Assembly: GCA_949282305.1 (NCBI GenBank)
Contig: CASDPB010000034.1
Span: 1 to 57,410, forward strand
Reading direction: 5' to 3'
Source: an uncultured Lentisphaeria bacterium
GTDB lineage: Bacteria > Verrucomicrobiota > Lentisphaeria > Victivallales > UBA1829
DNA: 57,410 nt
Numbering within the stretch: position 1 is the stretch's first letter; each line of letters opens with the position of its first letter. Below the pieces are notes generated by a model. The model worked only from the letters and a program-made list of their open reading frames with translations. It ran no database searches and was not told the origin of the DNA. Below are positions 23,618 to 34,265 of the stretch, piece by piece. The position numbers were made by a program, and so were the translations under genes.

Positions 23618-24856
23618 TCAGCGGAACATGGCGGCAGTCTTCTTAAGTTCCTCGGGGATGTTGATCTTCTGCGGACACTTCTTCAGGCAGGCACCGCAGC
23701 TGACGCAGCTGGAGGCACGCTGTTCCTCCGGCATGGCATCATAAATCAGTTTTCCGTAAAACTGCCGTCCGCCCGCCTTGACCTGATTGTAAACCGCAAG
23801 ATTGCGCGGAATATCCACTCCGACGGGGCATGGTGCGCAATAGCGGCAGGCGGTACAGGGAACCGCGCCGGACTTGCGGTAGGCGGCAAGCGCCTCGGCA
23901 ACCGTCTTTCTTTCCGCATCGCTCAGCGGCTTGAAGGGAGAAAAGGTCTTCAGATTGTCCGTCATCTGATCGGGCGCGGACATGCCGGAAAGCACGCAGA
24001 GCACATTCGGCAGGGAAGCGACATAGCGCAGTCCCCATGAAGCCGCACTCGCTCCCGGCTCGGCCTTTTCAAAGATGGCTTTCGCTTCCGGCGTCAATTT
24101 GACCAGGGTGCCGCCTTTCAGCGGTTCCATGACCAGAACAGGAATGCCGAGTTTCGTCAGAACCTCATACTGCTCCCGGGAACGGCAGAGTTCCCAGTCC
24201 AGATAGTTGAGCTGAATCTGAGCGACGTCCCACGGATACGCTTTGGCGATTTCCGCCAGCACTTCCGGCTCGCCGTGATAAGAGAACCCGATCCGGCGGA
24301 TTTTCCCCTCCGCCTGTTTTTTCTTCATGAAATCGTAAAGTTTCAGTTTTTCAGCGATTTTCCAATGGGCGGCATTCAGCCAGTGCATCAGGTAAAAGTC
24401 GAAATATCCTGCCTGGGTCCGCCGGAGCTGTTCCTGAAAAATCCTTTCCAGATCCTCTTCCTGCTTCAACATGATGGTCGGCATTTTTGTTGTCAGGTAA
24501 TAGGAATCGCGCGGATATTTCTTCAGCGCCTCCGCGGCGAACATCTCGCTTTCCCCGTTGTGATACATGTAAGCTGTGTCGAAGTAATTGCATCCCGACG
24601 CCATCGCTCGGTCGACCATCATCCGGGCGGTTGCCCGATCCACTTTGCCGTCCTTTTCGGGAAGCCGCATCAGTCCGAATCCGAGCAGCGGCAATGTCAT
24701 ATCCGTATTCTTATACCGGCGGCGAGTCACCTGCGGATTCGACTCCCGTCCGTTTTTTCCTTTTTCCTCTCCCGCTCCTGCCTGCGCGGCAAAGCGGGTC
24801 ACGGGTGCGAGTGCGGCAACGGTCAATGCACTTTTCAAAAAATCACGTCTGTTCAT
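23618..24856 (-). CDS. Tat-exported Fe-S aldo/keto reductase, copy 3
   Basis: The 412-aa protein has a twin-arginine signal (NRRDFLKSALTVAALAP) and an aldo/keto reductase barrel with the catalytic tetrad: Asp and Tyr in FDTAYMYHNGESE, Lys in LTTKMP, His in LMHWLNA. The C-terminus has two ferredoxin-type sites, CTACRYCAPCPVG and CVSCGACLKKCP, expected to hold [4Fe-4S] clusters. Export folded with cofactors fits the Tat route. AAGGAA is the ribosome binding site. It is the last of three tandem paralogues. Confidence 0.93.
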   Translation of the reverse strand: MNRRDFLKSALTVAALAPVTRFAAQAGAGEEKGKNGRESNPQVTRRRYKNTDMTLPLLGFGLMRLPEKDGKVDRATARMMVDRAMASGCNYFDTAYMYHNGESEMFAAEALKKYPRDSYYLTTKMPTIMLKQEEDLERIFQEQLRRTQAGYFDFYLMHWLNAAHWKIAEKLKLYDFMKKKQAEGKIRRIGFSYHGEPEVLAEIAKAYPWDVAQIQLNYLDWELCRSREQYEVLTKLGIPVLVMEPLKGGTLVKLTPEAKAIFEKAEPGASAASWGLRYVASLPNVLCVLSGMSAPDQMTDNLKTFSPFKPLSDAERKTVAEALAAYRKSGAVPCTACRYCAPCPVGVDIPRNLAVYNQVKAGGRQFYGKLIYDAMPEEQRASSCVSCGACLKKCPQKINIPEELKKTAAMFR

Positions 24857-24877
24857 GCTGTTTTTCCTTATTTGCTG

Positions 24878-26179
24878 TTATACCAGTGCTTCATTGTCCG
24901 GAGTCCAGAATGCCGCCGCCTGACGGCGGTTCTTTGATTCCAGCTCTGCGGCAATCCGTTTCAGGTGTTCCGGAATGTTGATTTTCTGAGGACACTTTTT
25001 CAGGCAGACACCGCAGTTGACACAGGCGGTGGCTTTTTCGTCTTCGGTCATTTTATCGTAGACCAGCTGGAAGTGAAAGAAATTGCCGCTTGTTTTGTAT
25101 TGATTGTAAAGACCGAAAATCCGGGGAATGTCCACTCCTACGGGACAAGGCGTGCAGTAACGGCATTCCGTGCAGGGAACGGCTCCCGATTTCCGATAGG
25201 CGGCAAGAGCCGCTTCCACGGTTCTGCGCTCCGCATCGGTCAACGGTTTGAAGTTTGTAAATGTCCTGATGTTGTCCTCCAGATGCTCGGTCAGCGTCAT
25301 GCCGCTTAATACGCAGAGCACGTTCGGGAGCGACGCCGCATAACGAAGCGCCCATGAGGCGACGCTCGCATTCGGATTGGCTTTTTTGAAAATGCCCGTG
25401 GCTTCCGGATTCAAGGTCGCCAGTGCGCCGCCGCGCAGCGGTTCCATGACAACCACCGGAATGCCGAGTTTTGTCAGGATTTCATACTGTTCTCTGGAGC
25501 GGTAAAGCGTCCAGTCAAGATAATTGAGCTGAATCTGGGCGAAATCCCAGGGGTGCACCTCGGCAATGATCTTCAGGACTTCGGGCTCGTCATGGAAAGA
25601 GAATCCGAGACGGCGGATTTTCCCTTCTTTCTGCTTCTGCTTGAGGAACTCGTAGACATGGAAACGTTTCGTATCCTCCCAGCGGTCCTTGTTCAGATTG
25701 TGAACCAGATAAAAATCGAAATAGTCTGCCTTGCACCGGGCGAGCTGTTCATTCCAGATACGTTCCACATCCGCCTCTTTTTTCAGAGCGCGGACCGGCA
25801 TCTTGCTTACAAGATAATAACTGTCGCGCGGATATTTGGTAAGCAGGTCCCCGGCACACTTCTCGCTGAGTCCGTCATGGTAAAAGTAGGCGGTGTCGAA
25901 GTAATTGACACCGGCTTCCATTGCGCGGGCGATCTGCTTTTCCGCCGTGGCATAGTCAATATCGGGTTTTTCGGGAGAGAGGCGCGGCAGGCGCATCATG
26001 CCGAAACCGAGCAGGGGAACGGTCTGGGCGGTATTCCTGTAGCGCCGGCGGGTGACCTGGGCGCCTTTGCTTGAGTCGGAGCTTTTGTCTCCGTCGAGCC
26101 CCGCCTTGGCGGCGAGGCGTGTAATGGGTGCGAGAGCGGCAACGGTCAGTGTTCCTTTCAGAAATTCGCGTCTGTTCAT
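24878..26179 (-). CDS. Tat-exported Fe-S aldo/keto reductase, copy 2
   Basis: This 433-aa paralogue has the same plan: Tat signal NRREFLKGTLTVAALAP, tetrad residues in FDTAYFYHDGLSE, LVSKMP and LVHNLNK, and two Fe-S sites CTECRYCTPCPVG and CVNCGVCLKKCP. The C-terminus carries an additional approximately 20-residue tail (NRRQAAAFWTPDNEALV). AAGGAG precedes the ATG. It starts 45 bases after copy 1 and ends 21 bases before copy 3. Confidence 0.93.
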   Translation of the reverse strand: MNRREFLKGTLTVAALAPITRLAAKAGLDGDKSSDSSKGAQVTRRRYRNTAQTVPLLGFGMMRLPRLSPEKPDIDYATAEKQIARAMEAGVNYFDTAYFYHDGLSEKCAGDLLTKYPRDSYYLVSKMPVRALKKEADVERIWNEQLARCKADYFDFYLVHNLNKDRWEDTKRFHVYEFLKQKQKEGKIRRLGFSFHDEPEVLKIIAEVHPWDFAQIQLNYLDWTLYRSREQYEILTKLGIPVVVMEPLRGGALATLNPEATGIFKKANPNASVASWALRYAASLPNVLCVLSGMTLTEHLEDNIRTFTNFKPLTDAERRTVEAALAAYRKSGAVPCTECRYCTPCPVGVDIPRIFGLYNQYKTSGNFFHFQLVYDKMTEDEKATACVNCGVCLKKCPQKINIPEHLKRIAAELESKNRRQAAAFWTPDNEALV

Positions 26180-26224
26180 AAGAACTTCTCCTTGGGTTAA
26201 TGTGTTCCACCGGTCGGCGCCGGA

Positions 26225-27472
26225 TCAGCTTTTGAGTTCCGCGGCGATTTTCCTGAGTTCCGCCGGGATTTTGATTTTCTGCGGACAATGTTTCATACAT
26301 TTGCCGCAGTTGACGCAGGCGGATGCCCGCGAATCTTCCGGGATCGCGTTGTAGTTGTTGCTGAAGAGCCATTTGTTGCCGGAGATCTTGTACTGGTTGT
26401 AAAGCCCGAATATCTTGGGTATTTCGACTCCGACCGGACACGGCATACAGTAACGGCAGGCGGTACAGGGAACCGCCAGATGCTTCCGGTATGCCGTCAG
26501 CGCCTGTTCCAGCACCTTCCGCTCGTTGTCCGTGAGCGGTTTCAGCGGAGAGAAGGTCTTGAGATTGTCCTCCATGTGTTCCGGCAGACTCATCCCGGAG
26601 AGTACGCAAAGCACATTCGGCAGACTTGCGACATAACGGAGCGCCCAGGCGGCATTGCTGGAGCCGGGATCGGTTTTCCTGAGAATTTCCGTGGCGTCCG
26701 GCGAAAGGGACGCCAGCGAACCGCCGCGCAGCGGTTCCATGACGATCACCGGGATTCCGGCTTTCGTCAGGATTTCATACTGTTCGCGGGAACGGTAGAG
26801 TTCCCAGTCAAGATAGTTGAGCTGAATCTGCGCAAAATCCCATTCATGCGCGTTTACGATTTCCTGCAGCACTTCGGGCGTGTCGTGGAAAGAGAATCCG
26901 AGTTTGCGGATTTTCCCCTCCTTCTTCTTCTGCGCCAGAAATTCATACGCCTTGTATTTCCGTGCAAGATTCCAGTTCACCGTGTCAAGCGAATGCAGCA
27001 TGTAGAAGTCGAAATAGTCCGTTTTGCATCGCGCGAGCTGTTCATTGAAAATTTTGTCGATGTCATCGGGGTTCCGCGCGAACCACACCGGCATCTTGTC
27101 CGTCAGGTAATAAGAGTCGCGGGAGTAGGGTTTCAGCAGTTCCCCGAGACAGCGTTCACTTTCCCCGTCATGATACATGTAGGCGGTGTCGAAATAATTG
27201 CATCCCGCCTTCATTGCCCGGGCGATCATCTTCTCCGCCGTGGCATAGTCGATTTTTGAATTGTCCGGAGACACCTGCGGCAGCCGCATGCAGCCGAAAC
27301 CGAGCAGGGGAACGGTCAGGGCGCTGTTCTTGTAGCGCCGGCGAGTCACCTGACTGCCCTGCCGGACATCCGATGTCTTGTCCCCGTCCGCCCCGGCTTT
27401 TGCCGCGAGGTGTGTAATGGGAGCAAGAGCGGCAAGGGTAAATGCACCTTTCAGAAATTCACGTCTGTTCAT
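26225..27472 (-). CDS. Tat-exported Fe-S aldo/keto reductase, copy 1
   Basis: This 415-aa paralogue has Tat signal NRREFLKGAFTLAALAP, tetrad in FDTAYMYHDGESE, LTDKMP and MLHSLDT, and Fe-S sites CTACRYCMPCPVG and CVNCGKCMKHCP. The start at 27472 follows AAGGAG; an upstream in-frame ATG at 27505 would add 11 residues in front of the signal and lacks a site. It lies 116 bases after tatA. Confidence 0.93.
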   Translation of the reverse strand: MNRREFLKGAFTLAALAPITHLAAKAGADGDKTSDVRQGSQVTRRRYKNSALTVPLLGFGCMRLPQVSPDNSKIDYATAEKMIARAMKAGCNYFDTAYMYHDGESERCLGELLKPYSRDSYYLTDKMPVWFARNPDDIDKIFNEQLARCKTDYFDFYMLHSLDTVNWNLARKYKAYEFLAQKKKEGKIRKLGFSFHDTPEVLQEIVNAHEWDFAQIQLNYLDWELYRSREQYEILTKAGIPVIVMEPLRGGSLASLSPDATEILRKTDPGSSNAAWALRYVASLPNVLCVLSGMSLPEHMEDNLKTFSPLKPLTDNERKVLEQALTAYRKHLAVPCTACRYCMPCPVGVEIPKIFGLYNQYKISGNKWLFSNNYNAIPEDSRASACVNCGKCMKHCPQKIKIPAELRKIAAELKS

Positions 27473-27588
27473 CTTCTTCTCCTTGATTTTCCTGCATTTG
27501 TTCAAAATTCCATTGGACGGCTTTTCGAGCCGGGGAACCGCCCCGACCCGTTCCGTTCGGTCTGCCTGTGCTGTAAAATCGCAACAGA

Positions 27589-27873
27589 TCAGCGACCGGC
27601 ATGATACTGTTTGGAGCTTCCGCCACCGGCCCGGCTTTCCGACGCCCCGCTGTCTGCGGAGGCGGAATCTATTCTTTTCATTTCCTCCTGTCCCGCCGTA
27701 TCCCTGACAACATCCATGAGTTCCCGGGTTTCATCGGTCACTGCAGACTTTGCCTTTTGGAATTCATAGGATGCACGCCCCAGGGACCGTGCCAGTTCGG
27801 GAATTCGTTTCGCCCCGAAAATGATGAGAACCACCAGAACGATGAGAAGGATTTCGGTAAATCCGAGCGACAT
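27589..27873 (-). CDS. tatA: Sec-independent translocase subunit TatA/TatE
   Basis: This 94-aa protein has the TatA membrane helix (TEILLIVLVVLIIFG), the hinge AKRIPELARSLG and an amphipathic helix (ASYEFQKAKSAV), then a short flexible tail. It forms the pore of the twin-arginine pathway. Two ATGs are possible: 27879 is only 1 base from AAGGAGG, 27873 is 7 bases away, so 27873 is the likely start. It lies immediately after larE and before three genes whose products carry Tat signals, so it probably serves them. tatC is not in the window. Confidence 0.93.
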   Translation of the reverse strand: MSLGFTEILLIVLVVLIIFGAKRIPELARSLGRASYEFQKAKSAVTDETRELMDVVRDTAGQEEMKRIDSASADSGASESRAGGGSSKQYHAGR

Positions 27874-27875
27874 AA

Positions 27876-28712
27876 TCATGCCTCCTTGTTTGATTGCCGG
27901 TTGTTGTTGAGTTCGTCCATGCTTCCGGAACGGAAGCCTTCAAGATCAAGAGTTACAAACTGAAATCCGAGTTTTTTCAGCCCTTCCGCAATTTCCCGGT
28001 GCCGCGCCGCCGCTACCGCAATGTCTTCCCCGGATACTTCAATCCGGGCGATGCCGGCATGAATTCTGAGCCGGACATCGCGGACGGAGGGAATGAGCTT
28101 ACGGATCAGATCCTCGCCGTCGATTGCTTTCCGGATCAGGTCTTCCGTCAGAAGGGAACCGTATTCAAAACGGGTTGCCATGCAGGGGATGGACGGTTTC
28201 TCCGCGCATTCCAGCCGGAGCTCCGCAGCCATGCGGCGGACATCTGCTTTGGTTATGCCGAGTTCGGCAAGCGGTGAACGGATGCCGAGTTCCTCCAATG
28301 CCGCCAGCCCGGGACGGTAGGATTTCCGGTCGTCGGCATTGGTGCCGTCGATGACGGTTCCGATCCCTCTTGCCATCGCGAAGTCTCTGATTTCCGAAAA
28401 AATATAGCGTTTGCACCAGAAACAGCGGTCCGGCGGATTGTATTTCACTTCCGGAATCGACAGCGGGTCACAGCCGAACAGTTTCAGTTCGATCCCCGCT
28501 TTTCCGGTGGCAATCCGGACTTCCTCCAGCTCTTCCGGACGCTGGAATATGGAATGCAGGGTCAGCGCCAGCAGGGGAAACGGGGCCTCGTCATGCAGTT
28601 CCTTCAGGGCGGCAAGGAGCAGAGAACTGTCAACTCCGCCGGAAAATGCGAGCGCAATCCCTCCTTCCGAGCGTTCCCGCAGATAATGCTTCAGTTGTTC
28701 ATATTTTGACAT
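27876..28712 (-). CDS. larE: ATP-dependent sacrificial sulfur transferase LarE, three-Cys type
   Basis: LarE makes the dithio-acid groups of the nickel-pincer nucleotide cofactor of lactate racemase-type enzymes. The 278-aa protein has the PP-loop FSGGVDSSLLLAAL for ATP. It has three conserved-position cysteines: Cys97 and Cys100 (RCFWCKRY) and Cys177 (PSIPCMATRF). LarE proteins with three such Cys are known to carry a [4Fe-4S] cluster as the sulfur carrier rather than sacrificing a single Cys. The start at 28712 (MSKYEQLKHYL) overlaps larC by 14 bases. No larA or larB is seen in the window. Confidence 0.93.
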   Translation of the reverse strand: MSKYEQLKHYLRERSEGGIALAFSGGVDSSLLLAALKELHDEAPFPLLALTLHSIFQRPEELEEVRIATGKAGIELKLFGCDPLSIPEVKYNPPDRCFWCKRYIFSEIRDFAMARGIGTVIDGTNADDRKSYRPGLAALEELGIRSPLAELGITKADVRRMAAELRLECAEKPSIPCMATRFEYGSLLTEDLIRKAIDGEDLIRKLIPSVRDVRLRIHAGIARIEVSGEDIAVAAARHREIAEGLKKLGFQFVTLDLEGFRSGSMDELNNNRQSNKEA

Positions 28713-29898
28713 TTTGTGCCTCCGCAATTTGTTTCGCCTGTATGAAAACCGTGTGAAAATCAATACCGGACGATTCGGAAAGCTGTTTTATGCTTTCATA
28801 TTCCGGGTAACAGCGCTCCACATTGTTCCAGACGCATTTCTTTGCCCGCACTGTTCCGAAAGGAAGTGTCAGTTCCACGGCTTCACGCTGCATGCAGGTC
28901 CGCTCCACGGGAAACTTCCGCAGACCTATGGTGGTGGTCGTTTCAAAGAGGATTGTTTCAATTCTCGGCAGAAGCGCCTCCGTCACAATCGCTCTCAGCA
29001 GATAGGCGGGGCGGTTCTTCTTCATGAAACACGGAAGAAAATGCACATCCCTTGCGCCGTTTTCCAGAAGTTTTTCCATCGCATAACCGAATGCTTCTCC
29101 GGTCGAGTCGTCGATATTGCATTCCACAACGTAAATCTGTTCCGGATCGCTTTTTTCCTCGATCAGCATGGCACGCAGAAGATTGGCACGCCCGAAATCC
29201 CGTTTGCCGAGTCCGATGCCGACCTTGCTGACCAGATACTCCCCCGGAAGCGCGGAACGGGTTCGGAGCGCCGCGGCAATTGCAATTCCGGTCGGCGTCA
29301 CCATCTCTCCGGCGGTTGCGGTTGTCCGCAGGGGAATGGAATACGTCTGGGCGATGTTCAGTACCGCCGGAACGGGTACCGGGAGCTCGCCGTGCTGGCA
29401 GTGGACGAATCCGGTGCCTTCGGTGAGTCCGGTCACAACGCAGTCTGTAATGCCGAGATCGTCAATTAAAACGGAAGCCGCCACGATGTCCACGATGGAA
29501 TCGACGGCTCCGACCTCGTGAAAATGAACCTCCTCAACGGAGCATCCGTGCGCTTTGGCTTCCGCTTCCGCAACAATCCGGAAGATTTTCTTTGCCAGCT
29601 CACGCGCAAACCGGCTCATGTCGCCCCGGTCGATAACGGAATGGACGTCGGCAAGATTCCGGTGCGCATGGTGATGATGCCCCTCGGCATGATGATGTTC
29701 GTGCAGACGCACATCGAAATCGCAGCCTTCGACGCCGCAGGACTTCCGGCGCGATACGGTATAATCAAAGCCTTCAAGACGCAGACTGTTCAATACCGCG
29801 TCAAGTTTTTCCCGGCTCCCCCCGAGGTCAAGCAGAGCTGCAACGGTCATGTCGCCGGAAATCCCGGATGCGCCTTCGAGATACAATAATTTACTCAT
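28699..29898 (-). CDS. larC: Nickel-pincer cofactor biosynthesis protein LarC
   Basis: LarC inserts nickel into the pincer nucleotide cofactor using CTP. The 399-aa protein shows LYLEGASGISGDMTVAALLDLG at the start, a His-rich loop at 66-79 (HEHHHAEGHHHHAH) that could bind nickel, VHFHEVGAVDSIVDIV, MVTPTGIAIAAAL and the C-terminal NIDDSTGE and ETTTTIGLR regions. LarC is a single uninterrupted frame here; in some species it is made by frameshifting. AGGAG precedes the ATG at 29898. Confidence 0.95.
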   Translation of the reverse strand: MSKLLYLEGASGISGDMTVAALLDLGGSREKLDAVLNSLRLEGFDYTVSRRKSCGVEGCDFDVRLHEHHHAEGHHHHAHRNLADVHSVIDRGDMSRFARELAKKIFRIVAEAEAKAHGCSVEEVHFHEVGAVDSIVDIVAASVLIDDLGITDCVVTGLTEGTGFVHCQHGELPVPVPAVLNIAQTYSIPLRTTATAGEMVTPTGIAIAAALRTRSALPGEYLVSKVGIGLGKRDFGRANLLRAMLIEEKSDPEQIYVVECNIDDSTGEAFGYAMEKLLENGARDVHFLPCFMKKNRPAYLLRAIVTEALLPRIETILFETTTTIGLRKFPVERTCMQREAVELTLPFGTVRAKKCVWNNVERCYPEYESIKQLSESSGIDFHTVFIQAKQIAEAQNVKI

Positions 29899-29959
29899 TG
29901 GAATGATCTCCTGTTGTTCCTGTTCCAAAATATTTCCTGTGCCATGGTCTCCGCACTCT

Positions 29960-31282
29960 TCATGCCTCCAGCGTGATCTGCTTTTCTATTTCATGAACGG
30001 TCATTGCCTTTTCCGGTGCAGGACAGACCTGCTGGCAGGCGCCGCATCCGATGCAGAGCCGCGGATTCAGGCGCGGAGCGCCGGTTCTCCGCAGAGTTAC
30101 CGCTTTGACCGGGCAGACGTTTGCGCATTTGCCGCATTTCGCCCCGTCCTGAAAAACGATACAGGTCCGCGGGTTGAAACGTGCTTCCGCAATTTTGGTT
30201 TTCTGTTTGGCTGCCAGCGTCAACGGGCGGATCGCCCCGGTCGGACAGACCTGGGAACAGCGGTTGCAGTCGAACTGGCAGGCGCCTTTGGTCAAATCCA
30301 GCGAAACCGGGCCGGCGCCATGCGGCGCAGGGACAATGATTTTCGCCGGGCAATTCGCCGTGCAGAGCTGGCAGGAGGTGCACCGGGCGGCAAAACGTTC
30401 CGCATTTCCCGCTCCCGGCGGCAGAATTCTGAAGCGGGCGGCAAAACGGGACAGCTTTTCCATGCCGGCTTTTGCCAGCACTGCCCCCGCGGCAAATCCC
30501 GCAATCAGAACCCCGCTGTTGACAAGAAAGGCGCGGCGGGTTTTATCGACGGGAAGCGCTTTCCGTTCCGCCCGCCCGAATTTCACCGCATGGAGACGGC
30601 AGACGGATATGCAGTTCATGCAGCGGACACAGCGTTCGTTGTCCAGTGTGCCGTTTTCCGGGTCGATGCAGCCGGAGGGACAGACTTTTACGCACATGCC
30701 GCATTTCACGCATTGATCGGAAAGACGCAGCCGGAACACCCCGTATTTCGCCGTCAGCCCGAGCAGGGTTCCGACCGGACAGATCGCGGTGCAGTAGATT
30801 CGTTTTTTCCAGACTGCCAGCGCGACGATGACTATCAGCGGAATCATGGAGCCGATGGAGAAGGAACCGACGATCCGCCCGAAATTGGAGTAGGGATCAA
30901 GCAGCAGAAACGGCGCCGCCCAGCCTGCAATCAGCATCCCGAAGGCAAATCCACCAATGAGATAGCGGGTTTTCATGAAATTCGCAGTTGTCCTTCCCTT
31001 CCGGCGGGAAAGGAATCCGATGAAATCCTGCAGAATTCCGAAGGGACAGAAGACCGCGCAGTAAAAGCGTCCGAACAGGAAAGTCACCAATGCTGTCGCC
31101 AGCAGAGCGATCAGTGTCCCTGCGGAGAATGCGGCAAGGCATTTCATCAGAACCGGCCCGAATTGCCCATGCAGAAGGGTCGCGAAAATGCCGCCTTTCC
31201 CGGAAAAACCGATAAGAGTCACCGCAATGCAAAGTGTCGCCGCCGCAATTCTGATATAGTTCCATTTCATCTGTTTTTTCAT
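29960..31282 (-). CDS. Membrane polyferredoxin (NapH-like with extra ferredoxin domains)
   Basis: The 440-aa protein is an electron-transfer membrane protein. Its N-terminal part has four or five hydrophobic segments with the NapH/CcoG-type motifs YCAVFCPFG and YCTAICPVG. A ferredoxin pair follows (CVKCGMCVKVCP, CVRCMNCISVC), then a Tat-like RRAFL segment with a hydrophobic stretch and a second series of cluster sites (CTSCQLCTANCP, CNRCSQVCP, CGKCANVCP, CIGCGACQQVCP). It looks like NapH fused to a NapG-like protein. It is the first gene behind the promoter at 31329 and precedes larC by 61 bases, which suggests it feeds electrons to the exported Fe-S reductases or to the LarE cluster. Confidence 0.9.
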   Translation of the reverse strand: MKKQMKWNYIRIAAATLCIAVTLIGFSGKGGIFATLLHGQFGPVLMKCLAAFSAGTLIALLATALVTFLFGRFYCAVFCPFGILQDFIGFLSRRKGRTTANFMKTRYLIGGFAFGMLIAGWAAPFLLLDPYSNFGRIVGSFSIGSMIPLIVIVALAVWKKRIYCTAICPVGTLLGLTAKYGVFRLRLSDQCVKCGMCVKVCPSGCIDPENGTLDNERCVRCMNCISVCRLHAVKFGRAERKALPVDKTRRAFLVNSGVLIAGFAAGAVLAKAGMEKLSRFAARFRILPPGAGNAERFAARCTSCQLCTANCPAKIIVPAPHGAGPVSLDLTKGACQFDCNRCSQVCPTGAIRPLTLAAKQKTKIAEARFNPRTCIVFQDGAKCGKCANVCPVKAVTLRRTGAPRLNPRLCIGCGACQQVCPAPEKAMTVHEIEKQITLEA

Positions 31283-31328
31283 TGCTCAAATCTCCTTGAA
31301 CATTCTGTTTTTCCCCTCTCTGATTTTT

Positions 31329-31358
31329 AGTATAAGCCTTAGAGTAACTGTCAGTCAA
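31329..31358 (-). promoter_or_regulatory. Promoter of the polyferredoxin/lar/tat cluster
   Basis: On the minus strand TTGACT (31358-31353), an 18-base spacer and TATACT (31334-31329), about 47 bases upstream of the polyferredoxin ATG. Confidence 0.65.
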
Positions 31359-31773: not shown

Positions 31774-31983
31774 TCATTCCATATTGCTTTTTCTTTTCTC
31801 TATACTCCACATTTTAGCTTTTCGCATGTGGTCTTGCTCACTGGCCGCAATTATGATTGTCAATAAACAAGCCAATAGTAATAACAATAACAGCAAATAT
31901 ATGGTCCAATGTGTTTTAATGTGTATCCTTATCGCCGCCCCATTTAAAAAACAGTCATTTTCCCCATCCTGCAGTTTTTTCAT
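31774..31983 (-). CDS. Possible small single-pass membrane protein
   Basis: Sixty-nine codons with one clear membrane helix (TIYLLLLLLLLACLLTIIIAA) flanked by charged ends. The start overlaps the 3' end of the ankyrin gene by 29 bases in an AT-rich island, so it may be translated with it. No family is recognised; it could be an accessory to the ankyrin protein or a chance frame. Confidence 0.4.
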   Translation of the reverse strand: MKKLQDGENDCFLNGAAIRIHIKTHWTIYLLLLLLLLACLLTIIIAASEQDHMRKAKMWSIEKRKSNME

Positions 31984-32695
31984 TTAACAAATCAATTATT
32001 TTCTTGTTTCCTCTTTTTCCGGCAATATCAATTGCTGTATCCCCCCAGATATTCTTGACAGATTTGTCAGCTCCCTGCTCTAAAAGTTTCTGAACAAGTA
32101 AAATATTTTGATTGGAAACTGCCCGCATTAATGGGGTAATGCCATTTGCATCTGCTTGATTGATATTTTTTCCAAAAGCAATTCTTGCTAAGGCATTTTC
32201 ATCATCATGAAACATCAGTTGCAAAAGTAAAATAGACTGTCCTGAATTTCCCCGATACCGAATGACCTTCACAACTCTTTCCTGAGGTGTCCCTTCTATA
32301 TATGAATAAAAATCCGGCAACTCGCCTTTTGCAAAATTAAACTCAATCGGACCATCCAATGAAGATGGCAAAACAAAAATCCGCTGATTTTCTCTCCTCC
32401 AGGCTACAATTGCTGTACTTATTCCTTCTTCTATATAACATGCAGCAAAATTAGGAATATAAGTTATTGAATCACTATCATGTATATGTGGTTTGAGCAA
32501 TATCCATTGAGTATGATCTGGAAAGAAGCCTTCATTATCATGAGCATAGAGAGATAACTGCTTAGATACTTGTCCTAAAATTGCCATACTTTGAAAACGA
32601 GGACGTGATGGTGGTACAGGCATTATTTGAACAAATACAAGTCCGAGAAAGAAAATAAACCCTAAAAGGATATAAAATCTTCTATAATGTTGCAT
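31955..32695 (-). CDS. Membrane-anchored ankyrin-repeat protein, possible immunity protein
   Basis: The 246-aa protein has an N-terminal membrane anchor (FYILLGFIFFLGLVFVQIMPV), a middle part with LSLYAHDNEGFFPDH (similar to pseudopilin globular domains of this phylum), and about two ankyrin repeats at the C-terminus (NQADANGITPLMRAVSNQNI, NIWGDTAIDIAGKRGNKK). Its ATG lies 2 bases after the stop of a broken toxin-like frame on the same strand (32698-32900). Ankyrin proteins often serve as immunity partners of polymorphic toxins, so this role is inferred from position. Confidence 0.75.
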   Translation of the reverse strand: MQHYRRFYILLGFIFFLGLVFVQIMPVPPSRPRFQSMAILGQVSKQLSLYAHDNEGFFPDHTQWILLKPHIHDSDSITYIPNFAACYIEEGISTAIVAWRRENQRIFVLPSSLDGPIEFNFAKGELPDFYSYIEGTPQERVVKVIRYRGNSGQSILLLQLMFHDDENALARIAFGKNINQADANGITPLMRAVSNQNILLVQKLLEQGADKSVKNIWGDTAIDIAGKRGNKKIIDLLNEKTAGWGK

Positions 32696-33284: not shown

Positions 33285-34265
33285 TTAGATTTTATCATAA
33301 TCTGCTGTTGTTACATTCCTCTTTTCAGAAGAAGCCTGTTCCAGATTAAAGTATAAATTTATTACAAGACGCAATTCATCCCCTGAAATATTTGGAAAGA
33401 CACTTTTCTCCACTCGTCCTTTTCCATAATATTTGCCAGTATAAAAATAGAAATAAAGATAATCTGAATTATTTGTACCAACCTCAAGGGAAATGCTTCG
33501 AGAATGGTAGCCATTCAATGGAGCTTTCTTCATATCACCAAAGTTTTTAATTTGTGTATCAACAATAAAACCTGCTGATTTATCTTCGGACTTCAACTGT
33601 AAAAAAGCAACCTTTGGAATAAAAATATTATTAGTATTTTGTTTTTTCAATATATTCCCGAATTTATCCCGCTCAACATCAATACTCAAGCTATTTTTGC
33701 CGGGGACAGTCGCATTGCTCACTTTTTTCATCAGTGTCAAGTCGATATAATCTCCCGGTGAACCCTGACGCCATGACATTCCGGTATATAACTTTTTAGT
33801 TTTGGCAATCTTACCAATTTTTCGCAACTTGATAATGAGGTCTTTCTGCAAAGGATTTATCTTTGCATTTTGTTTCATCCCAGCAGGAAAATAAAAATGC
33901 AGTTCTTCATCATAATAGCCGTCCTTTTGAAATGTAAGGACTACGGATGTATAGTGCCTTTTTTTGCAATGAAAAAAAGGACCGACCTTGCTTTCTTCAT
34001 AAACAGTTTCATTTTTAGTTTCCCATATGTCTTTGGGACGGGAATAACGTGCTTGCAGATTTACATTATCAAGTTTTTTTCCAGAGGAATCAATAATCGT
34101 TCCCTGAATATCAATAACAGCATTTTTTAATGAAGTTTGATGTAACTCTCTAATAATTCCAACTCTCTCTCTATTCGCAGCTATTCTACCTGCTGATGGT
34201 TCACCTCCGTAAGTCAAGAAAAAGAAAATAATGACTAGAAGAAAAATCAAGAAAGATTTCATCAT
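33285..34265 (-). CDS. Secreted protein with a carboxypeptidase-regulatory-like domain
   Basis: The 326-aa protein has a signal peptide (MKSFLIFLLVIIFFFLTYGG). Residues about 50-130 (DIQGTIIDSSGKKLDNVNLQ, VVLTFQKDGYYDEEL) resemble the carboxypeptidase regulatory-like beta-sandwich. The remainder is Lys/Tyr-rich and unrecognised. GAGGA precedes the ATG. The gene is very AT-rich and lies between two IS3 relics in the same orientation, so it is probably acquired. The function is unknown. Confidence 0.8.
   Translation of the reverse strand: MMKSFLIFLLVIIFFFLTYGGEPSAGRIAANRERVGIIRELHQTSLKNAVIDIQGTIIDSSGKKLDNVNLQARYSRPKDIWETKNETVYEESKVGPFFHCKKRHYTSVVLTFQKDGYYDEELHFYFPAGMKQNAKINPLQKDLIIKLRKIGKIAKTKKLYTGMSWRQGSPGDYIDLTLMKKVSNATVPGKNSLSIDVERDKFGNILKKQNTNNIFIPKVAFLQLKSEDKSAGFIVDTQIKNFGDMKKAPLNGYHSRSISLEVGTNNSDYLYFYFYTGKYYGKGRVEKSVFPNISGDELRLVINLYFNLEQASSEKRNVTTADYDKI

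Follow-up and report, generated by a model that had tools for sequence, protein, structure and literature searches.

We analysed a cluster of seven genes in a 57,410-base stretch of DNA (the window), which is an entire contig of the metagenome-assembled genome (G000, approximately 96% complete) of an uncultured Lentisphaeria bacterium. The cluster places larC and larE, two genes for synthesis of the nickel-pincer nucleotide (NPN) cofactor, among genes for a membrane polyferredoxin, a subunit of the twin-arginine translocation (Tat) system, and three Fe-S aldo/keto reductases (AKRs) with predicted Tat signals. Inspection of the open reading frames (ORFs) and family profiles agreed with the initial annotation that all seven genes lie on the minus strand, and each of them is open and of full length. 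From upstream to downstream, they encode the polyferredoxin (PolyFd, 29960-31282), the nickel-inserting NPN biosynthesis protein LarC (28699-29898), the sulfur insertase LarE (27876-28712), the Tat translocase pore subunit TatA (27589-27879), AKR1 (26225-27472), AKR2 (24878-26179), and AKR3 (23618-24856). PolyFd and larC are separated by 61 bases, and larC and larE overlap, as had been noted before, by 14 bases. The earlier placement of the tatA start 2 bases past the larE stop codon holds if the second Met is used, while the upstream start gives an overlap of 4 bases. The remaining gaps are 116 bases (tatA-AKR1), 45 bases (AKR1-AKR2), and 21 bases (AKR2-AKR3). A consensus scan placed a match to a sigma-70-like promoter (TTGACT-N18-TATACT) on the minus strand ahead of PolyFd (31329-31358), where a single good promoter had been proposed. 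The match is one of three that agree at 10 of 12 consensus positions within 15 kb, and the same scan returned 19 promoter-like sites versus 11.6 expected from shuffled sequences, so that this promoter is plausible but weak. No tatC was found within the cluster, in which tatA stands alone, and the guanine-plus-cytosine (GC) content of the cluster (54-58%) is similar to that of the adjoining MtlD-like gene and thus uninformative as a signature of foreign DNA.

PolyFd (440 amino acids) was characterized by Pfam and NCBIfam profiles, hydropathy, Cys motifs, and a 13-member alignment in which the cluster-binding Cys residues are invariant. Its N-terminal part is NapH-like, with four transmembrane (TM)-like segments, two CxxxCP Fer4_5 motifs, and then two [4Fe-4S] sites, and its C-terminal part contains the sequence TRRAF and a further TM segment followed by 16 Cys residues, corresponding to four more [4Fe-4S] sites. 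The chain therefore has two Fer4_5 and six Fer4-type sites, and hydropathy gives five or six hydrophobic stretches. Its score against the NapH profile TIGR02163 (89 bits) is below the family cut-off of 213. As in the NapGH quinol dehydrogenase, a four-TM NapH-like part with CxxxCP and ferredoxin sites precedes a NapG-like poly-Fe-S part, whereas PolyFd is one fused chain and its partners are an AKR or a DUF362 protein rather than nitrate reductase. From family knowledge of NapH and NapG, we take the first Fe-S sites to be cytoplasmic and the last four to be outside, an orientation that we infer from the NapH-like part and from the TRR preceding the last TM segment. The layout is compatible with PolyFd being a putative trans-membrane electron wire. 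A search of plasmids with PolyFd found remote relatives only. TatA was identified by TIGR01411 (57.4 bits, cut-off 53.9) and PF02416.

The three reductases form one family, with AKR2 and AKR3 sharing 69% and 62% identity with AKR1, respectively. All match PF00248 above the cut-off (145-152 bits), and AKR1 also matches Fer4_9. The twin-arginine signals and paired ferredoxin-type sites previously ascribed to them are borne out by the N-terminus MNRR(E/D)FLK and by the motifs CxxCxxCxxC and CxxCxxCxxxC in each protein, and the eight Cys residues of the two C-terminal [4Fe-4S] sites are kept in nearly all relatives. The predicted structure of AKR1 has the canonical AKR fold, and its tetrad Asp95/Tyr100/Lys126/His160 is invariant among relatives; sequence matches in the PDB cover the AKR domain only. 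The proteins thus share the AKR barrel, the catalytic tetrad, and two C-terminal [4Fe-4S] sites with other Fe-S aldo/keto reductases that join PF00248 to a C-terminal Fer4, but differ from them in being predicted to be Tat-exported, in standing three in tandem, and in their linkage to PolyFd and TatA. We found no paper on Tat-exported Fe-S AKRs. In related loci, a Tat-signal DUF6282 protein adjoins a second type of Fe-S AKR (approximately 38% identical to AKR1), usually with the same polyferredoxin (L060 5123-8866, L058, L059, and L102); in G000, this pair is separated onto contig C121.

LarC has complete LarC1 and LarC2 domains (PF01969, 436 bits; TIGR00299, 193 bits; NF052512, 136 bits), the latter two scores exceeding the curated cut-offs. 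LarE scores 248 bits against TIGR00268 (cut-off 150) and contains the PP-loop SGGVDS at residue 24, CFWC at residue 97, a third Cys at residue 177, and a CMATR motif. These features conform to the definition of LarE by an SGGxDS PP-loop and a CxxC-C cluster motif (PMC9283937) and confirm the three-Cys [4Fe-4S] type that had been proposed, as in the Thermotoga maritima enzyme (PMC9283937). Family profile searches, on which all genome-wide counts here rest, located LarB on another contig of G000 (C116:50928-51548, 288 bits) and a second LarC at C121:14029-15159, so that the genome encodes the complete NPN pathway of LarB, LarC, and LarE. The LarA profile (PF09861) had no match anywhere in this genome. 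Of the two genes reported missing by the initial annotation, larA is therefore absent genome-wide, whereas larB is absent only from the cluster. Compared with the lar operon for lactate racemase (larA-larB-larC-larE), the window has every motif that defines larC and larE, but its genome lacks larA, has larB on a separate contig, and surrounds larC and larE with a polyferredoxin, TatA, and exported reductases. The combination of larBCE without larA occurs in approximately 15% of genomes, including many cyanobacteria, and a client of a different fold, yet to be identified, is expected there (PMC11796402). G000 resembles those genomes in having NPN synthesis genes without LarA; what sets it apart is the operon that joins its lar genes to particular exported redox proteins, and in related loci one such protein has the LarA fold.

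The linkage recurs in relatives. Genes for NPN synthesis adjoin the same polyferredoxin type or its AKRs in at least seven genomes of the Victivallales (G000, G001, G014, G035, G067, G125, G133, and G134). The gene orders are PolyFd-LarB-LarC-TatA-TatC-AKR in G001, PolyFd-LarC-AKR-AKR together with a separate LarE-AKR in G014, a truncated LarC followed by an AKR in G035, PolyFd-LarB-LarC-LarE in G067, DUF362-PolyFd-LarB-LarC-LarE-TatA-TatC with a divergent AKR in G125, AKR-PolyFd-LarB-TatA-TatC-DUF362 in G133, and DUF362-PolyFd-LarB in G134. A scan of named genomes with the PolyFd profile gave 80 loci, approximately half of which were weak PolyFd matches and were left out of the interpretation; it revealed the order DUF362-PolyFd-LarE-LarB-LarC, all on one strand, in the Verrucomicrobiota bacterium JB025. 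The identities of LarB, LarC, and LarE in several linked loci, including JB025, were verified with NCBIfam. In the LarC tree, several forks of which are weakly supported, the linked copies fall in about four places, namely a group of G000, G001, G035, and perhaps G014, then G067, G125, and the very distant JB025. Chance or an assembly artefact as the origin of the linkage was rejected because it recurs, including on a 3.9-Mb contig in G125. The LarC upstream of the AKR in G035 (L071 8965-9807, 281 amino acids) is the LarC1 half only, and a LarC2 half is found on a different contig (C2:116576). One locus of genus g9 (L111, genome G029) has TatA-TatC-PolyFd with no adjacent DUF362 or AKR in a larBCE-bearing, LarA-less genome, where PolyFd may have yet another partner gene. 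PolyFd is paired with a Tat-DUF362 or an Fe-S AKR across many phyla, in Bacteroidales, Desulfovibrio, Synergistaceae, Spirochaetes, Riflebacteria, Akkermansia, and Chloroflexi (L128-L166).

The neighbourhoods of relatives also bear on whether the lar genes could be passengers, that is, a mobile larC-larE cassette inserted into a PolyFd-Tat-AKR operon and co-expressed with it while NPN serves an unrelated enzyme. In the two congeners G016 and G017, the AKR-PolyFd module comes with no lar genes, and a different LarE is present together with LarA; in genera g6, g7, and g9 and most of family f8, larB-larC-larE normally stands alone without PolyFd. These cases speak for an independent cassette, and by themselves they would make the linkage chance on the refuting criterion set by the initial annotation; with the adjacencies considered as well, the outcome of that criterion is mixed. 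However, the same polyferredoxin type is adjoined in approximately four LarC lineages and in several gene orders, with JB025 counted as another phylum, and a crude random placement within the order predicts 0.09 genomes with lar-PolyFd adjacency versus the seven seen. When the adjacencies are collapsed to four lineages, which handles phylogeny only roughly, p is approximately 2e-6. The adjacency to PolyFd in seven genomes, on several separate LarC lineages, thus argues that the linkage is not due to chance, and these comparisons firmly support a real and recurrent association of lar genes with the polyferredoxin module. We regard mere passengers as unlikely.

A second alternative turns on LarA itself. 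LarA homologues are NPN-dependent racemases of many 2-hydroxy acids (PMC7583248, PMC11770544), and NPN could accordingly serve a LarA-like racemase that feeds or drains the substrate of the exported reductases, which would be a link of pathway rather than of cofactor. LarA is indeed present in G014, G067, and G035, but PF09861 had no match in G000, G001, G125, G134, or JB025, where the lar linkage is found, and we consider this explanation quite improbable. Partial PF09861 matches of 21-25 bits in relatives (G035:C1:378522, G126:C5, and similar) were examined as hidden LarA and set aside, as they are DUF362 proteins and coincide with PF04015 matches. Separately, 29 genomes of the order have LarA but neither LarC nor LarE (for example G004-G007, G089-G094, and G127, the last being 99% complete); these organisms may scavenge NPN, or their LarA homologues may work without it.

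To identify what LarC tracks, 137 genomes of the order were scored for LarC, LarE, LarA, Tat-AKR, PolyFd, and the pair formed by a DUF362 protein (PF04015) beside PolyFd; the pair was scored by hand among the matches listed, so that a few pairs may be missed. On this basis, LarC is present in 39 of the 43 genomes with the pair and in 49 of the 94 without it (odds ratio 9.0, p 6.5e-6), and none of 20,000 within-genus shuffles was as extreme. The association also holds within genus g43 alone (5/7 versus 1/27, p 4e-4). The corresponding odds ratios are 0.89 for LarA, 0.75 for Tat-AKR, and 0.44 for the AKR-type PolyFd. Because the DUF362-PolyFd pair co-occurs with LarC and the Tat-AKR does not, DUF362 is the stronger of the two candidates for the pincer-dependent enzyme, which is most likely located elsewhere, as first suggested. 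That the Tat-exported AKRs themselves use NPN or a derivative as a hydride carrier, soluble NAD(P)H not being expected outside the membrane, would explain larC and larE in the operon, the adjacency of lar genes to an AKR or PolyFd-AKR in G000, G001, G014, and G035, and the case of G001, which has lar genes and an AKR, no LarA, and a single non-paired DUF362, but it is highly improbable given the lack of Tat-AKR/LarC co-occurrence, the presence of Tat-AKRs and polyferredoxin in genomes without LarC or LarE (G003-G005, G007, G101, and others), and the canonical fold and intact tetrad of AKR1, in which no feature resembles an NPN site.

The DUF362 candidate is predicted to have the LarA fold. G000 carries a module TatA-TatC-DUF362-PolyFd on contig C89, in which the DUF362 protein has a Tat signal. 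A model of the JB025 homologue (pLDDT 90) gave 19 best Foldseek matches that all belong to the LarA family, with Z scores of 16-18 over approximately 210 residues versus 5.5 for the next fold. A pattern of His197-x9-Lys207-x14/15-His222 is invariant in 19 DUF362 sequences (shorter by two in some), the equivalents in a second set of 21 sequences are His184, Lys194, and His207, and His-x9-Lys-x15-His is kept in 21 LarA sequences from the same genomes. Alignment with hhalign places the His/Lys/His set of DUF362 onto the LarA trio. In LarA of L. plantarum, Lys184 is the NPN tether and His200 a Ni ligand (PMC9283937), and His174 is a catalytic acid/base (PMC12611868). DUF362 and LarA (DUF2088) are both members of Pfam clan CL0471 (PMC11770544), in which study DUF362 serves as an outgroup only. 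Unlike LarA, DUF362 is a separate Pfam family of 305 amino acids (versus approximately 425), is predicted to be Tat-exported, and is paired with PolyFd. The partners match PF04015 only, and PF09861 matches nothing in G125 or JB025, which places these proteins outside the LarA family proper. A PDB sequence search with the DUF362 profile had no match up to E 10, and the likeness to LarA is accordingly shown by fold comparison rather than by sequence search. We found no paper proposing DUF362 as an NPN enzyme or showing that it binds NPN. A third Tat-DUF362 type, found beside AKRs, also keeps His-x9-Lys-x15-His (L060 11666-12649, L102 11788-12765, and L104 9607-10587).

From these comparisons and models, we tentatively read the cluster as an export and electron-transfer module merged with NPN synthesis, with NPN serving the LarA-fold DUF362 partner. 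PolyFd would draw electrons from quinol or the cytoplasmic ferredoxin pool and deliver them, through its outward-facing Fe-S part, to the exported AKRs at their two Fe-S sites, a transfer that is plausible. LarB, LarE, and LarC would build NPN in the cytoplasm, and its likeliest user, rather than the AKR, would be the Tat-exported DUF362, which can take the AKR's place beside this type of polyferredoxin. The Tat system exports proteins already folded around their cofactors; an NPN enzyme could therefore be loaded inside and used outside. The polyferredoxin may then let such an enzyme perform a net redox reaction instead of racemisation. Most simply, in G000, larC and larE of the window would serve the DUF362 of C89 while being co-transcribed with a sister module of shared export and electron-wire logic, and the window operon could be a version, merged or derived, of the full arrangement found in G125. 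More tentative still, though possible, is the wider proposal that a class of Tat-exported, polyferredoxin-wired DUF362 proteins of LarA fold uses NPN outside the membrane to catalyse net redox reactions, the window operon being a hybrid of this system with exported Fe-S AKRs.

Several observations weigh against assigning NPN to DUF362. The window itself has no DUF362, and in G001, G014, G067, and G035, where lar genes adjoin PolyFd or an AKR, no Tat-DUF362/PolyFd pair was found; three of these have LarA, as noted above, and G001 is only 78% complete. The program hhalign matches DUF362 to LarA locally and with modest probability (E 0.001), and the region corresponding to the second catalytic His of LarA (His108) reads FD(H/T)TC in DUF362 and is not clearly conserved. 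Among high-quality genomes only, the pair is still the strongest correlate of LarC (odds ratio 10), but the association is weaker (p 0.022). Four pair-bearing genomes lack LarC (G092, G105, G127, and G133), and DUF362 is present without LarC in the Bacteroides control; DUF362 is therefore not always an NPN enzyme. Finally, the pair was found in 10 of the 30 genomes that have LarC and LarE without LarA, and the other 20 have neither LarA nor the pair among the matches listed, so that other NPN clients must exist, possibly a cytosolic DUF362.

Outside the cluster, an ankyrin-repeat protein (31955-32695) adjoins a low-GC stretch of the window (approximately 37% near 32-34 kb versus 52% overall), which contains an orphan ORF (33285-34265) without a Pfam match.

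What is new at this locus is the operon context of the NPN synthesis genes; should DUF362 turn out to be an NPN oxidoreductase, the function could be categorically new as well. The operon linkage, the phylogenetic co-occurrence, the LarA fold, and the residues that hold NPN in LarA converge on one expressible candidate, the exported DUF362 with its polyferredoxin, and a Duet system for co-expression of larB, larE, and larC has been published (PMC11796402). If the proposal is true, the exported DUF362 would fill the place of the NPN client in many genomes that have larBCE without larA, and the role of NPN as a cofactor would extend beyond racemisation to electron-coupled reactions.

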